From assembly GCF_000787575.1 (NCBI RefSeq), contig NW_012236525.1, positions 1,193,686 to 1,257,685 of the forward strand: 64,000 bases of DNA, written 5' to 3'. The position numbers and the translations under genes were made by a program. Shown piece after piece: positions 20,325 to 64,000 of the stretch. Source of the stretch: Acytostelium subglobosum LB1. Taxonomy: Eukaryota; Evosea; Eumycetozoa; Acytosteliales; Acytosteliaceae. Each line of letters starts with the position of its first letter. The stretch's first letter is position 1. The notes below the pieces were generated by a model, which saw only the letters and a list, made by a program, of their open reading frames with translations, was not told the origin of the DNA and searched no databases.

Positions 20325-23300
20325 CTAAAGGTCCTTGAATGGAAGTTTCAAACAGATCTTGAAGGTCTCTGCCAAGTTGTCCAAACTGTTGTCCAAAGAA
20401 TATGCCTCTACTGCATTGAATAAGGGCATGAAGAAAGTGAACGCCATTCTGCGCAACTTGTTGACTTCCTCACTGGAGAGCCTGTTGTTGAGTGCTCCAA
20501 TTAGAGCCAATGCCTTGGCAACCGAGGATGATTCTGCATATTGCTGGAATCCTGGACGAAGGAAATCAGGATAGTTGGCAGAGTTTGATGTTGGGATCTG
20601 GAGAGAATTGAAGTTATCGACCAACTTGTCAATTGATTGTTGTGCTCCAAAGAGTGGCAGAGTAGGGACTGTCGGTGATGCAAAGAGCGATTGGCTAAAG
20701 AAATGTTGTGGAGGTGTTCCAAAGAATGAGGGCTGTACATTGGATGTAGTTGGAGATCCAAAGAGTGATGGCAGGGGCACGCCCTCTGGAGTCAAAAACT
20801 TTGGTGGAGACTTTGGAGGAGAGGAGGACACTGGGGAGACAAAGGAAACATCACTTGAGAAGTTGTCATTGAATTTTCCTCCAACACCAAAGCTCGATTG
20901 AGTGGTTTGTGGTGTTGCAGCAGGGGCTGTGGAACTGGCTTTTTGGTGGTAGGATTGCATGAGGAACAATGCTGGGATCGGAGCAACGAACTGATTTGCA
21001 GAATCAACGAGTGGCAGCTGTGTGACAAGTGCCTCCAACTCCTTCAAGAGGTATCCCTTGCATAGTCCAAATGGTGCATCGTGGGAGCAGATTGGTTTGG
21101 TGGCACGCATTGCCAGTTGAGCAAAGTGTCTTGGGGACTGACCATACTTGTTGGTTGCTCCCTTGAGCGATTGGTTGACACCCTCAGAGTCCAATGTTTG
21201 AACCATCTCCTTTGGAATGGGCGACAGCACGGCGTAGTGATAGAGTGAGTGTCCGAGGAGGTCGACTCGAGGTGTCTGAGCAGACTTGAGGAGCTTCTTG
21301 ACTGCGGCAACATTACCATCAAGGATGGCCCTGAAGATGCTCTCTGACGTGTCGCCAGTTGGCCTCTGGAAGGGTTCTTCTTTGTAGTTCCTCCAAGATT
21401 GGAATGTTTTCCTGTCACGGAGACCACACTTTAGCTTCGCTAGATGCGGGTAGGTTCGTAGCAAATGTTGCTCGAGAGCATGGTGTCCATAGATCCTTGC
21501 CAAAATCAGACAGGACATCTTGAAGTAGTTCTTGGTCCTCAATTGAGGAAGGGCCCCCTTGGCCAGGAGGAACTTGACCACCTCGAGATTGCCTGCTATA
21601 CAAGCGTAGTGCAATGGATAGAGACCATTGGCGGTGGGGGTATTGAGCAGATCGGCATGCACTGGGAACAAGGACTCCAACGACTTCATATTGCCATATG
21701 CAGAGGCAATGGCCACAAGATGGTCAGTCTCACCAACAACGTTCTGGTACATATAGTACATGGACTTTTGTTGGGAGGGCTTCCAGGACATGTCGGTGAT
21801 TGGTTGGTTGTTGATCACTTTGTATCTCATCTGAGGAGTCAACAAAAGATCGTTGGTGAGGTTCTGAGGGTTGGTCGCACTGTTAGNCCCACTCTTGGTC
21901 GTTGACTGGATGGAAGGATCCAGTGAGCAGTTGTCTGCCAGGGTTTTGGGTGACCCATTGGACCTTGCCATGGACAAAATCACCTTGACCATCGTCTGAT
22001 GGGCTCTCACCATTCTGACACTTGCGACACCATGACGACTTGCCATCAAGCATCTGCTGATAGCCGGTGACCACTATATGGTGATGCTTAAAGTCATGTT
22101 TCTTGGCAAAGAACTGCGACTTGTCCTTGTAGTTGATGACGGTGACCATTGAGCTCTCGGTCCAGTACTGGCCAGAGGGGATCTCACACTCTGAGTAGTC
22201 TGACTTGTTCTCAACGCTCACATTGCCACTGTAGCTATTGACATAGCGATGCTCAAGGAGCAGCAGACGTGCTAGACCACTCGACTTCTCAAGGGGCAGT
22301 GAGAAGAGATTGGGATGGACCTGGTCGCGTCTCATATCGGGTACAACGATGGCAAATCCTCTAGCGGCGTACTTGAACAGTCTTGATTCGTAGGTGAGCG
22401 AGCGACGAGTCATAGAGACACAGTTGATTCCATTAACGATTGCTCTGCGTGCACGGGGCAGTGCGTACACTTGGTGGCCGTCGTAACCAATCGAACAGCT
22501 GTCAATATCAAAGCCCATGAGCACCTCTGCTGGTGAGCTGTAGATACGCAGCACAACTTGAATGTTGCGTGCAGGGTGGGCGTTGATGAATGTGACGGCG
22601 TACCTGGTTCTGGCTACCTCCATCTTGGGATTCTTCTGCTTGAAGAAATGGTAGAGTGCATCGAGTTTGGTGGAGGCCTGCTGCTCGCTGACACCATAGA
22701 AGAACAGATCAATGTCAGACTTGGACCACTCTGATTCAAACTTTTGAGGAATGTCCATGGCGCACTTGAGTACAGCGCCACCGGCAACAAATACGTTGCT
22801 CCAGTCGAATCCAGAGAACATGTTGTTGGAGAACTTGTTCCAATGTGCTACAAAGTCATTGTGGCTGTTCTGAACCTTTGGACCATGTAGACCAGACTTG
22901 TAGAATTGGTTGTGAACAAATGGCATCACGACAAACTCTGACGATAGGTCAATGTTGCTGACCTCGCGGTACGATGGAAGACTCTGACCAAACACTGGCT
23001 CCAAACCAGCGTATCTGTCCTTTGGTGGATTCTTGGCGGCGAATGCCTCTCTGTACGATGTCTCCTTGTCAAACTCTTTGAAGAAGTTGCTCGATACCTT
23101 GGTGGCGGCTGGCTGCTTGAAAGAGGTTGGTGCTGGTGCCGCAGCAACAGCAGCAGGCTGAGTGGTGTTGAAAGAGAATGCTGGTGCTACGCTAACTGCT
23201 GGTGGGGAGGGGGAGACCTTGCTAAAAGCATCCGAGTATGTCGGAGTTGGTGCAGGTTTGTAGGTGGAAGCAGGAACAGCAGCGGCGGGCTTTGAAGATG

Positions 23301-25469
23301 ACATAAGTGCTGGCAGATGTGTTGAGATGCCAGTTGGGTCGCAGGTGAACTCTACCAAATACATTTGCTTCTGTTGATTGGTGTTGTATATGACATATTC
23401 GTTGTCTTTGAAATCGGAGTTGTTTGAACCATTGTTGGCAACTCCAAGACAACTGTTGTAGCCAATGGGCGGCTTGGTGAGGGATGAGTCGATCTTGGTC
23501 ACTCTGTTTACCATTCCAACCGCAACCTCTGAGACCAGGATGAAGCGTGTTGCTGGTCTGCCCGGTGTGAGTGACGTCTCATGTGCATAGAGACAGCTGG
23601 TCGAGAACTTGTCGGCAAAGTAAATTCCGGCACCAAGGAATCCAAAATCTGTTCTTGAGCCACCAGTGTTGACAATGACCTTGGGCAGAAGCATGCCACG
23701 CGACAAGATACCGACAAAGTTGGCTGGTCTACTTCCGTGGAAGAGCAATTTGGTGGGAGTGACCGACTTGTTAAAGTCCTTGTCCTCGTTCTGTCTGGCC
23801 ACCTTGTAGATGTTCTTGATGGTAACGTTGCTCGAGGTGTCCATCACAAGCTTATGCACTGTCGAGTAGGGAGTTGAAAAGGGGTTGAGCGGCTCAATGT
23901 CAGACTTGAGCGCAGCGTACTTCATGTCGAGAGCGGATGCACCCAACGCGCCAGACTGGTTGATCCTGAGGAGATCGCGCATCAATTGAAGGAGCTCAAC
24001 CTTGCTCGAAAGAACGTCAAGGTTGCGGATGAGATTCTTCTGGACATCAGCCTTGGTTCTGCCCATTTTGTGTGGGATCGTAGTGTAGAACTCAGAGCTG
24101 TACTGTTCGATGCGAGAGTTGAGTGGCGTGGATGACTTGAGCTCGGCGTGCAGCTTGTCCAAGATTGCCTCTCCCTTCTCGACCTGAGACATTGACAGTA
24201 CACCCAATGGTGTCTCAATGCCGTTGGCAGTGATGCTGACAGAGGCCTGCATGGCAAGATGTGCAGTGGCCTCCTGGAAGAGGCAAGAGATCAGATCTTG
24301 GAGCTGTGGATGCAACTTTGATGGTGCTGCAGGTGCCAATTGACTGGCAGAGTCACTCTTTGAAGTGATCTTGGCTGCTGAAAGGCTCACTGGCTGATAA
24401 CCCTTCTTTGTCTTTTCATTGTAGACAGATGAGTAGAGGTTCAGCGCATCACTCAAATTGTTTGGATGTCTTGATTCCTTTGTTGCCTTGCCATCAGTAC
24501 GCTATTGTGAGGATCAACACGTTAGTGGATCGTCGAAGGTGGTGAAAGAGTGGATGGAGTAGTCATAATACTTACACCATAGTTTGTGTACAGACGGTAA
24601 ACATTCTGACCACTTGGAGAGACACCCTCGTGAAGCTCCAAGATGTAGTACTTGTTGTTGTTATCGCCAAGGCTGGTGAACTGGAGTGTATGCTCCATTA
24701 TCACCTCGTAGACTGCTGGGAAAGCAGGTGCATTGGCAGCGCCGAATGTGTAGAGAGTGCATTTGATTGCTGTTGGTCTGGCAATCAGTTGATGAGTCGA
24801 TTTGGTGGTGGATGTAGTACCAAGGCCCAATGAAGAGAATGGTTGGATGATTGACGAAGTTGAGTTGTCTGTGGTAAATGGACTATCACTTTCGTTAGAC
24901 TCGACGAGCGCAGGTCTTGGAAGCTTGCTCTGCACTGGCATTGGCTTGATGAGTGCTGAGGCTTTTGCCATTGGCTTCTTTGATGGGGAGGTGGAGCCAA
25001 AGGAGAATGCAGAAGTGGGTAAGGTTGTTGTGGCTGCGGTAGCTCCAAAGAGTCCCATTGATGGGGAGGTTGTGGTTGTTGATGTTGATGGTGATGATGC
25101 TGGTGGTGGAGAGGTAACAACCTTCTTTGGAGAGACAAGATTCTCGGCAAAGTTGGACGATGCAGCATCAAAGAATGATGAGGGGATGGTCTTTGGCAGG
25201 GTGAACCTATAGCGAGCAGGGTCCAACTTGAGGTTCTTCTCGATACAGTCCGAGACAAAGGTTTCACTGACAATGTGGACACCAAGCGATGTAGCTCTCT
25301 TGATGTTTGATGATTGATTGTGGAACTCCTTCTCCACGGTGATCATATGGGTCACCTGTTTGGCAATGAGAAAGTTGATAGCACCACCATTGTCCTTGAT
25401 GGTCTTGCTCAACTGGATCTTGCTCTTCACATCTGAAGATATATAGAATGTACAACCTTCGAATATCAT
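20325..25469 (-). CDS. Multidomain poly(ADP-ribose) polymerase: BRCT, WGR, PARP, nucleotidyltransferase-like domain, ankyrins
   Basis: Predicted nuclear ADP-ribosyltransferase. Exons 25469-24576 and 24501-20325, about 1690 aa. In order: BRCT (1-95); Ser/Pro-rich linker; WGR (about 220-330, WGR replaced by YGR, split by the intron); PARP helical regulatory domain (about 360-490, FYTTIPHKMGRTK); catalytic domain (about 510-690) with LFHGSR, GAGIYFADKFS and NEYVIY, so the H-Y-E triad is intact. A second linker leads to a domain with VAGGAVL and SDIDLFF (about 830-1020), the GG...DxD pattern of pol-beta-type nucleotidyltransferases. Ankyrin units follow (from ~1230, GLYPLHYACIAGNLEVVKFL), then a Phe-Gly/Ser-rich tail. 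The frame shifts by one at the N at 21887, probably an assembly fault. ATG 25469 starts right at BRCT; a further upstream exon is possible. Confidence 0.88.
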
Positions 25470-60870: not shown

Positions 60871-61480
60871 TCATCGATGTTGTTTGGTTGTCAAGTTGAA
60901 TGGCATGTTGGATGGCGAAGATGTGGTTGTTGTCTTGTGCTTCTTGGTCTTAGCAGTTGTTGTTGTTGTTGTTGTTGTTGTCGTTGATGTCTTGTGCTTC
61001 TTGGTCTGTGCAACAGCAGTTGTCGTTGTGGTCGTTGTCTTGGGCTTCTTGTTCTGTGTAGCAGTTGTTGTTGTTGTTGTTGTCGTTGATGGCAATGATG
61101 CCTTTCTTTTGGTTGCTGACTGATGCTGCTTCAGTTCACTCACGCTGCTCTTTGATCTACAGGTGGAGTTGTCTCTGGTGTGTTGGATTTGGTTGTCAAC
61201 CGAACTTCTTGTTATTCGCCTGCTGCGTTCTCTTTGTGGAGGACGGAGCCATCCTCTTCTTCGTTGGTCGGTGTGTATCAACTCTTGCTGGTGTGTCATA
61301 AATGGAGCCATTGTTAATGTGGTTGTCCAAGAAGGTCGTCAGGTGTCTGTCCACAACTGTATTGATTATGTGACTTGGTTGAGCATCCTCCAGTTCGCTG
61401 ATGATTGCATCCACTTGTTTGCTGCTTGTTCTGCTGCTACTTGATGTCCTGTNCCAATGCTCGAGCAACATACTGGGCAA
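60871..61480 (-). CDS. Putative Thr/Lys low-complexity protein (frame uncertain)
   Basis: Minus-strand frame 61311-60871 gives 146 codons whose C-terminal half is four imperfect units of a Thr run followed by KKHKT or KKPKT (AKTKKHKT, AQTKKHKT, TQNKKPKT). The upstream part overlaps a second minus frame (61480-61196, with VDAIISELEDAQPSHII) that also looks like protein; an N at 61453 sits in it. Either an intron or an indel connects the two frames, or this is a decayed gene. Basic, Thr-rich; no known domain. Confidence 0.4.
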
Positions 61481-62218: not shown

Positions 62219-64000
62219 ATGATGAACGAGTTGTTTAAGTCAGTTCTACACAACACATATCTGTTTGGACAAGTAAAGGGACACCTGCACATACATTGTA
62301 CTTATGATTGTGTGTCAAAAGATGGCGACAAGGCAAGATACATCCTATCAAAGCCATACAAACAATGGATATCTGTCGAGGACATCTGTCGCAATGGTCA
62401 TCAATCATTGCTCTATTACAAGCTACGCCAACAACAATACCAACAACATTCAACCAACAATCCATTAATTCAAATGAGAAGTTACAAGGATATAGTTGTA
62501 GTGTGTCAATACGTGACTGATGAAACCATCTTCTCATCAGTGTATCGACGATGGCAACATATGTTCATCAGCCCCTCGCTGCTTCAACACGCTGTCATTG
62601 GTGCCAACTATAATGCCTTGCGAATACTCATCTCTCAGACCTCACCCGTCACACTCCCGGTAACCATCAAGACTCTCTTTCTATGGACCAAGAATCGCTT
62701 CAGAAGTGACATCGATCAAAGCGTGTGGCGCGAGATTATGGTTGGTCTACTTGAGGTCCGTTGCAATACAGAGCACTTATCAAGAAAGGTGGACAACGGC
62801 AATCAAGTCAGAAGTCATTGGAGAGCATTGATTGATATACTGGTGATTGTTGCGTATTCTGAAGATGAGCTACTCTGGAACAAATTGCAACAACTGAGAA
62901 AGGTGCTCAACAAAACCATGGTCGTGCCGTTTGATAAGTTTGATCAGATCACTTTGAAAGATGGTGCATTGCAGACGGCCGACCCAACCAAGGCCATTGG
63001 CTACCTGAATGACCACCTGGAATATCAAGTTGATTGGTCGACCTCGCTCACTTCGCACATCGAGAGCACTGTGATACTGGCAAGACGAGCTGGTTTGGAT
63101 ATCGATATTATGATGGACAAGATCACTCTAGTGGTTGATGCTCTGTCGCCAGCTCCACAATGCCATGCACAGGACAGGAAACAGATCATTGACACACTAT
63201 TGTTGGCTCAGATCATCACCCATCAATTCTCATCAAAGGAAGAATATTATGTCGAGCTCTTCATGTACGTCACCAAACTCTTTGTACAGTTGAAGCGAGT
63301 GGATCTCATTGAATACTTCATGTACGAGATTGGTCTTTATATCGGTGAGCAGTTCGAGGCATTGGCAACACATGGCTCTCTCGAGCTGATCCTCGCCGCC
63401 ACCCAATCTATTCTATCAACACCCAAGGAGGACTCGAGAAAGGCACTCACGATGGGACTTATTGCTGCACTTCGTAGAGATGATCAAGATAGTGATGCCA
63501 TTGTCCGTCACCTTTCTGCCCTTGTCAGTGTGGAAGGTTTCGGGAAGGAAGACGAAATCATTATTGTCTCATCTGGCGATAAGCTTCTGGCCCTCAGCAA
63601 GGTACTGAATCATGTCAAGCCTGCTGTGATTACGCTCCAGCAGTTCAAGGGCCTCTGCTCTTTGGACACTGGTGGCACCATTCATTCCAAACGATTTGTT
63701 CAAGAGACACTGGACACCGCAGTCCGATTGGGCGACATCCCACTCATCGATCACCTGATCGGTCACATCAAAAATGAGCCAGAAATGATTATCCGATTGG
63801 TTGGCATGGCATGGCAATGTGGACAAGTGTCAGTTGCCAACAAACTGCTGAACGGTCCCATTTCATCTCAGACATCATTGAGATATATTATCAAGTTGGA
63901 CTGGCNNGTGGTGACCAATAATAGTCCAGCCATTATATTCTTGGATGGCATCTTCACACACCACAATGACANGCAGATCAGGGAAATNGCNATGACAATG
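62219..64000 (+). CDS. Large family protein of unknown function, 3'-truncated by the window
   Basis: An uninterrupted frame runs from ATG 62219 (a second ATG follows directly) to the window end: 594 codons without a stop. It opens MMNELFKSVLHNTYLFGQVKGHLH, the type of start I associate with a large dictyostelid-specific multi-copy family (ankyrin-like helical repeats, often near contig ends). The body is made of helical pairs such as GSLELILAATQSIL and AVRLGDIPLIDHLIGHI, reminiscent of ankyrin/HEAT units but degenerate. Five N bases lie in the last 100 bases (63906, 63907, 63972, 63988, 63991). Function unknown. Confidence 0.75.
   Translation, partial: MMNELFKSVLHNTYLFGQVKGHLHIHCTYDCVSKDGDKARYILSKPYKQWISVEDICRNGHQSLLYYKLRQQQYQQHSTNNPLIQMRSYKDIVVVCQYVTDETIFSSVYRRWQHMFISPSLLQHAVIGANYNALRILISQTSPVTLPVTIKTLFLWTKNRFRSDIDQSVWREIMVGLLEVRCNTEHLSRKVDNGNQVRSHWRALIDILVIVAYSEDELLWNKLQQLRKVLNKTMVVPFDKFDQITLKDGALQTADPTKAIGYLNDHLEYQVDWSTSLTSHIESTVILARRAGLDIDIMMDKITLVVDALSPAPQCHAQDRKQIIDTLLLAQIITHQFSSKEEYYVELFMYVTKLFVQLKRVDLIEYFMYEIGLYIGEQFEALATHGSLELILAATQSILSTPKEDSRKALTMGLIAALRRDDQDSDAIVRHLSALVSVEGFGKEDEIIIVSSGDKLLALSKVLNHVKPAVITLQQFKGLCSLDTGGTIHSKRFVQETLDTAVRLGDIPLIDHLIGHIKNEPEMIIRLVGMAWQCGQVSVANKLLNGPISSQTSLRYIIKLDWXVVTNNSPAIIFLDGIFTHHNDXQIREXXMTM

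Follow-up and report, generated by a model that had tools for sequence, protein, structure and literature searches.

One gene on the minus strand of the window analysed here, a 64-kb stretch (64,000 nucleotides) of contig NW_012236525.1 of Acytostelium subglobosum LB1, is predicted to encode a PARP4-like ADP-ribosyltransferase joined to a nucleotidyltransferase (NTase) domain and to ankyrin repeats. We think that the protein is best read as a vault-associated ADP-ribosyltransferase of the PARP4 type with an appended, probably active NTase that resembles the CCA-adding enzymes, and we give this whole reading a probability of about 0.5. The existence of the gene, the NTase fold and the PARP4 type are, taken together, very likely. 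The gene is formed by the following features, given with the basis for each of them.

20325..25469, minus strand: whole gene, PARP4-like ADP-ribosyltransferase, NTase and ankyrin protein (open reading frames, translations)
24576..25469, minus strand: exon 1, 298 codons, with the ATG at 25469 (sequence)
24502..24575, minus strand: predicted intron of 74 bp, GTAAGT...AATAG (sequence; WGR joined across it)
21888..24501, minus strand: exon 2, from 24501, with 871 open codons to 21889, PARP and NTase in the same frame (open reading frame)
25209..25466, minus strand: BRCT domain (PF16589, E=2.5e-12; PF00533, 2.2e-11)
24388..24698, minus strand: WGR domain, divided by the intron (PF05406, E=2.4e-11 spliced, 0.016 unspliced)
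23971..24321, minus strand: PARP regulatory domain (PF02877, E=1.9e-20)
23347..23868, minus strand: PARP catalytic domain, H-Y-E intact, PARP4-like (PF00644, E=2.9e-26; human PARP4 8sx1, E=1.3e-48)
22951..23336, minus strand: linker, its first part rich in Pro, Ala and Ser (sequence; without Pfam match)
22222..22950, minus strand: domain of predicted NTase fold, Gad2/phrog_4400 family, with a signature of GG, DxD, Gln, Asp and R..K (profiles, predicted structure)
21889..22221, minus strand: stretch between the NTase and the ankyrins (sequence)
21887, minus strand: uncalled base N, site of the frame change (sequence)
21459..21710, minus strand: ankyrin repeats (PF12796, Ank_2, E=1.8e-12)
20325..20940, minus strand: linker rich in FG, Pro and Ser, C-terminal tail and stop codon (sequence)

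The type of the PARP half was recognized by a phmmer search of the PDB with exon 2. Human PARP4 was the top match (1.3e-48), followed by PARP1 (4.2e-27), PARP2 (4.5e-23) and PARP3 (5e-22), and by these E-values the catalytic domain is nearer to PARP4 than to the other three. In an alignment with human PARP4, residues H255, Y294 and E368 (exon-2 numbering) stand at its H, Y and E. This alignment and the Pfam matches bear out the initial annotation of this DNA, made from the letters only, which had described one gene with BRCT, WGR, PARP regulatory and catalytic domains and an intact H-Y-E triad. It had overlooked the PARP4/vault type, the phage and giant-virus NTase family to which Gad2 belongs, and the shift of frame ahead of the ankyrins.

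An N-terminal BRCT domain and a mid-protein PARP catalytic domain with H-Y-E, a feature of Clade 5, are present in the window protein. No Pfam match to VIT or vWA, the trait of Clade 5A, was obtained for it, and a long C-terminal extension without these domains is what defines Clade 5B in the accessible part of a 2010 survey (PMC2964712). That survey assigns to Clade 5B the Dictyostelium discoideum proteins Q54HY5 and Q55GU8, which share with the window protein the BRCT domain, the mid-protein PARP domain, the long C-terminal extension and the lack of VIT and vWA (PMC2964712). The difference, in a comparison by description only, is that the published descriptions accessible to us name no NTase or ankyrin domain in them (PMC2964712). 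Judged from its sequence, the window protein fits a dictyostelid Clade 5B enzyme, that is, a PARP4-type ADP-ribosyltransferase with the Clade 5 order of BRCT, WGR, PARP regulatory and ADP-ribosyltransferase domains. With human PARP4, the vault PARP of Clade 5A, it has in common the BRCT, regulatory and catalytic domains, but it carries the NTase and the ankyrins in the place of VIT and vWA. Among the PARP loci of the same genome that were compared by BLAST, the nearest are L016, which contains BRCT, PARP_reg and PARP without an extension in its own frame, and L059/L166 (contig C40:384500-394000), a separate PARP4 with VIT, vWA and 14-3-3 in the same genome as the NTase fusion. The VIT-vWA-14-3-3 type is also reported from amoebae in the part of a 2014 survey that was available (PMC4245714).

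Ankyrin repeats and a PARP domain in the same protein might also bring to mind a tankyrase or an ankyrin-type Clade 1 PARP. We rejected this identity, which is extremely improbable: tankyrase has its ankyrins and a SAM domain before the PARP domain, whereas in the window protein the ankyrins are C-terminal, Pfam gives no SAM match and the catalytic domain resembles that of PARP4 most. In the protozoan PARPs of Clade 1A the ankyrins are N-terminal as well, according to the accessible text of the 2010 survey (PMC2964712).

The gene goes beyond what chance would give because it has 871 open codons, significant domain matches and an NTase that is common to five paralogues of its own genome. The predicted 74-bp intron is supported because the WGR match (PF05406), which with exon 1 alone stays under the cut-off (E=0.016), becomes strong (2.4e-11) when exon 1 is spliced to the start of exon 2. 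Further downstream the coding frame shifts by +1 at the lone N at 21887, and the ankyrins lie in the following 519 codons, in the other frame; the earlier placing of ankyrins after the NTase domain thus stands by its Pfam match, but the change of frame on the way to them had been missed. This frame change at an uncalled base is what speaks for a pair of genes, or for a join made in assembly, in place of one protein, an explanation that we consider very improbable. The join of PARP and NTase is independent of the question at 21887 because both are within the 871-codon frame of exon 2, and the guanine-cytosine (GC) content of windows spanning the junction is 0.43–0.54 (0.31 and 0.30 on either side of the gene, about 44% in the whole window), so that the frame change is not marked by an AT-rich gap. 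Giant-virus proteins named as ankyrin proteins that match the NTase model, described below, argue against separate genes too. Within one gene, the frame change would fit an erroneous base call or else a short intron, and 24 GT-AG pairs of 40–200 bases could rejoin the frames around this position. The stretch between the NTase and the ankyrins, searched as a 103-amino-acid query in its own genome at E up to 10, returned only itself. More uncalled bases are found toward the end of the window, at 61453 and 63906-63991.

After the PARP domain, the motifs GGAVL and SDIDLFF, already pointed out in the initial annotation, begin at exon-2 residues 574 and 595, and the motifs hG[GS] and DxD of the pol-beta-type superfamily are both present in the domain. 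The window NTase matches PHROG 4400 at 3.7e-5, and a profile-profile comparison gave 96% against the phage family that contains Gad2, with shuffled controls at 1.1% or less. The similarity to this Gad2/phrog_4400 family is significant and extends from the GG motif as far as RG, so that membership of the window domain in the family is supported at the level of sequence profiles. Gad2 counters Gabija, a function that belongs to this phage member only, and its mechanism is termed unelucidated in the portion of the source at hand (PMC12904381). The window protein shares with Gad2 and with the phrog_4400/phrog_1614 phage NTases a homologous domain with the signature residues, while the phage proteins examined carry no PARP fusion. 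Of the 44 family members of alignment A6, four were matched weakly by PolyA_pol (best E=0.0028), and no other Pfam family matched more than one.

The fold was studied on two AlphaFold models, one built with the six amoebal sequences (model 1, mean predicted local distance difference test score, pLDDT, of 62.8) and another with 38 IMG/VR relatives added (model 2, mean pLDDT 75.0). In model 2 the ten-residue blocks of residues 31–170 reach 78–97, with 9 of the 14 core blocks at 90 or above, and both ends are of low confidence. It has two PDB matches at E<=0.001, namely 3aqm, titled 'bacterial protein', which we take to be E. coli poly(A) polymerase (2.3e-4), and the human CCA-adding enzyme 1ou5 (3.0e-4), both with a probability of 1.00, and the best 50 of 517 matches are all NTases as far as can be judged. 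Model 2 supports a NTase fold like that of class II CCA-adding enzymes and poly(A) polymerases. The likeness to these enzymes resides in the fold of the head domain, and the differences are that the window domain has no Pfam PolyA_pol match and a Gln where their third acid would be expected. The earlier assignment as NTase is thus backed by profile and structure searches that reach NTases, with a reservation at that Gln.

Conservation at the predicted active site was counted in an alignment of 96 sequences, some of them near-identical or truncated (6 amoebal, 15 first-found phage-type and 75 further relatives). In domain numbering, to which 517 is added for exon-2 numbering, the counts are 95 for G57, 92 for G58, 95 for D79, 93 for D81, 91 for Q131, 95 for D148, 94 for R190 and 91 for K193, and the window domain retains all eight residues. 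In the register of CCA enzymes, as we assume it, Q131 would lie on the strand where the third acid is usually found, and the counterpart of D148 would be the RRD Asp.

Including the fusion, six members of the NTase family are found in the genome, the other five being stand-alone frames (L010, L011, L012, L013 and L014) of 440–547 codons from stop to stop without any match in Pfam. Two of them, L011 and L013, are about 9 kb apart on contig C55. The identity of the window NTase to these paralogues is 24–29% (BLAST). A Foldseek search of model 1 in BFVD, which holds viral proteins only, gave 74 matches at E<=0.001, with the Fadolivirus protein A0A7D3QUG1, 'ankyrin repeat domain-containing protein', at the top (4.8e-16, 38% identity over 193 columns). 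Among the best 50 of the 74, ankyrin appears in seven names, BTB in four and VWFA in three. Since giant-virus proteins named for ankyrins match the NTase model, the pairing of NTase and ankyrins seems to exist elsewhere. These giant-virus ankyrin, BTB and VWFA proteins are the best fold matches of model 1 in BFVD; the difference, in a comparison by name, is that PARP is absent from the names of the same best 50. The figures of 38% and 24–29%, which come from different programs, hint at a closer kinship of the NTase-ankyrin half with giant-virus proteins than with the paralogues of its own genome, and gene exchange is a possible origin of the closeness to A0A7D3QUG1.

No close viral or prokaryotic copy of the amoebal NTase was confirmed in viral contigs searched with the window protein or profile A2, in phages by tblastn, or in genome contigs, and no CCA relative was confirmed in the genome contigs. 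Most of the matches to three degenerate DNA patterns were unrelated; only L032 and L156 among them were recognized as family members, and L160 was weak (E=0.0033). In L156, an IMG/VR phage contig, the GG motif reads GGGAIRD, which presumably resembles the GG..RD motif of CCA enzymes; it is possible that L156 is an intermediate between the Gad2/phrog_4400 family and the CCA-adding enzymes.

The link to vaults is drawn from relatives. A proximity-labelling study of 2026 in D. discoideum with MVPA-TurboID found, in the text accessible to us, both Clade 5B proteins enriched, together with two other PARPs and a TEP1 orthologue (PMC13100048). Because these Clade 5B relatives are enriched near vaults, it can fairly be inferred that the window protein may be vault-associated. 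The A. subglobosum genome itself has 22 vault-repeat matches at several loci. One minus-strand frame of 709 amino acids (L057:1660-3786, contig C52), with major vault protein repeats (PF01505, 1.6e-11), a PARP catalytic domain (3.1e-7) and WWE (1.3e-9), is by these matches a predicted MVP-PARP fusion.

We think that the protein would work as follows. The ADP-ribosyltransferase would be active, as H-Y-E is kept, and most likely a mono-ADP-ribosyltransferase like PARP4; the protein would be recruited to vault particles, as seems to happen with its published Clade 5B relatives in Dictyostelium, and BRCT/WGR and the ankyrins would choose location and partners. With less assurance, the NTase would be catalytic, as its signature residues are kept, and would move a nucleotide from a nucleoside triphosphate onto an acceptor close to the vault, for which an RNA 3' end is the likeliest candidate. 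RNA 3' ends are favoured since the nearest solved structures belong for the most part to RNA-tailing enzymes, to judge by their titles or known roles, and template-independent phage NTases restore RNA ends according to the available parts of two papers (PMC7824862, PMC9503650). RNA tailing as the activity is a tentative proposal, with the substrate guessed from the fold.

The presence of PARP and NTase in one exon could instead mean that the target of the NTase is a protein or the ADP-ribose mark itself, with both domains acting in sequence on one substrate, in the sense of the two-activity modifier that the initial annotation had suggested. In Bacillus phage PJN02 (L077:1-1863) the NTase-family gene overlaps a macro-domain gene by 4 bases, and a NADAR gene is located upstream with one gene between it and the macro gene, which would suit this alternative. 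Among 50 phage records (of 75 loci; a few of these records are near-duplicates), however, a macro domain occurs in 6 and NADAR in 4, and none is at 4 kb or less from the NTase; the idea of an ADP-ribose operon taken from PJN02 was dropped as not general, and we consider this role of the NTase improbable. A bolder version of the vault proposal, in which the NTase-ankyrin module fused to the vault PARP came from a giant virus and the vault would both ADP-ribosylate and nucleotidylate (tail or seal) RNA or ADP-ribosylated ends, is quite improbable; if true, such a giant-virus-derived enzyme of two chemistries could be an antiviral or RNA-repair device.

Several results weigh against a vault-associated PARP with an active CCA-like NTase. 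Pfam, PolyA_pol (PF01743) included, has no family that matches the window NTase, and a PDB search by sequence only with profile A2 found no NTase. A single-sequence hhalign comparison with a fragment of the organism's own CCA-like enzyme exon, without the GG motif, gave 1.6%, and the five paralogues compared singly with the phage profile gave 0.12–1.2. Model 1 had no PDB match at E<=0.001, though its top matches were NTases, and the TM-scores of model 2 stay modest: normalized by query length, its first three matches have 0.37, 0.37 and 0.46. Regarding the vault, the association comes from clade membership and not from the window gene itself, the MVPA-TurboID set is broad, with 529 proteins that include 69 of 79 ribosomal proteins in the accessible text (PMC13100048), and no known vault-binding domain was recognized in the last 114 amino acids, whose one PDB match (E=1.4) was an unrelated hydrolase. 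The RNA substrate, a guess, counts here as well.

The last of these points is the Gln found in 91 of the 96 sequences at the position where the third catalytic acid would be expected in the register that we assume. The initial annotation had proposed to look for both Asp of SDID and a third acidic residue; the two Asp are conserved as D79 and D81, but the expected site of the classical third acid holds the Gln, and the nearby D148 could serve as third acidic residue. A non-enzymatic NTase-fold domain, serving as a nucleotide- or RNA-binding sensor or as a scaffold that regulates the ADP-ribosyltransferase, would account for this Gln. Moreover, G58 and D81 are gone from the paralogue L014, which reads GS for GG and DxN for DxD, therefore some members have drifted. 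Against such a sensor, G57, D79 and D148 are conserved almost without exception (each in 95 of 96 sequences) and the window DxD is complete, as expected of a working metal site, and we regard it as rather unlikely. The catalytic NTase is the reading that we prefer.

A literature search for this fusion, or for a NTase in dictyostelid PARPs, found no description in the texts available. Clade 5B PARPs were already known, whereas the NTase in the extension, its relation to Gad2 and the existence of paralogues in a eukaryote seem to be new within the literature searched, as far as it was accessible. With them the NTase family of the phage anti-defence protein Gad2 reaches into eukaryotes, with six members in one genome and no Pfam match. 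The function of vaults is still termed elusive in the accessible part of the recent study (PMC13100048). A vault-type PARP with a second, probably catalytic nucleotide-transfer domain would give vault research a proposal that can be tested biochemically, in organisms amenable to genetics, and its architecture suggests that one protein may combine two chemistries, ADP-ribosylation and nucleotidyl transfer.

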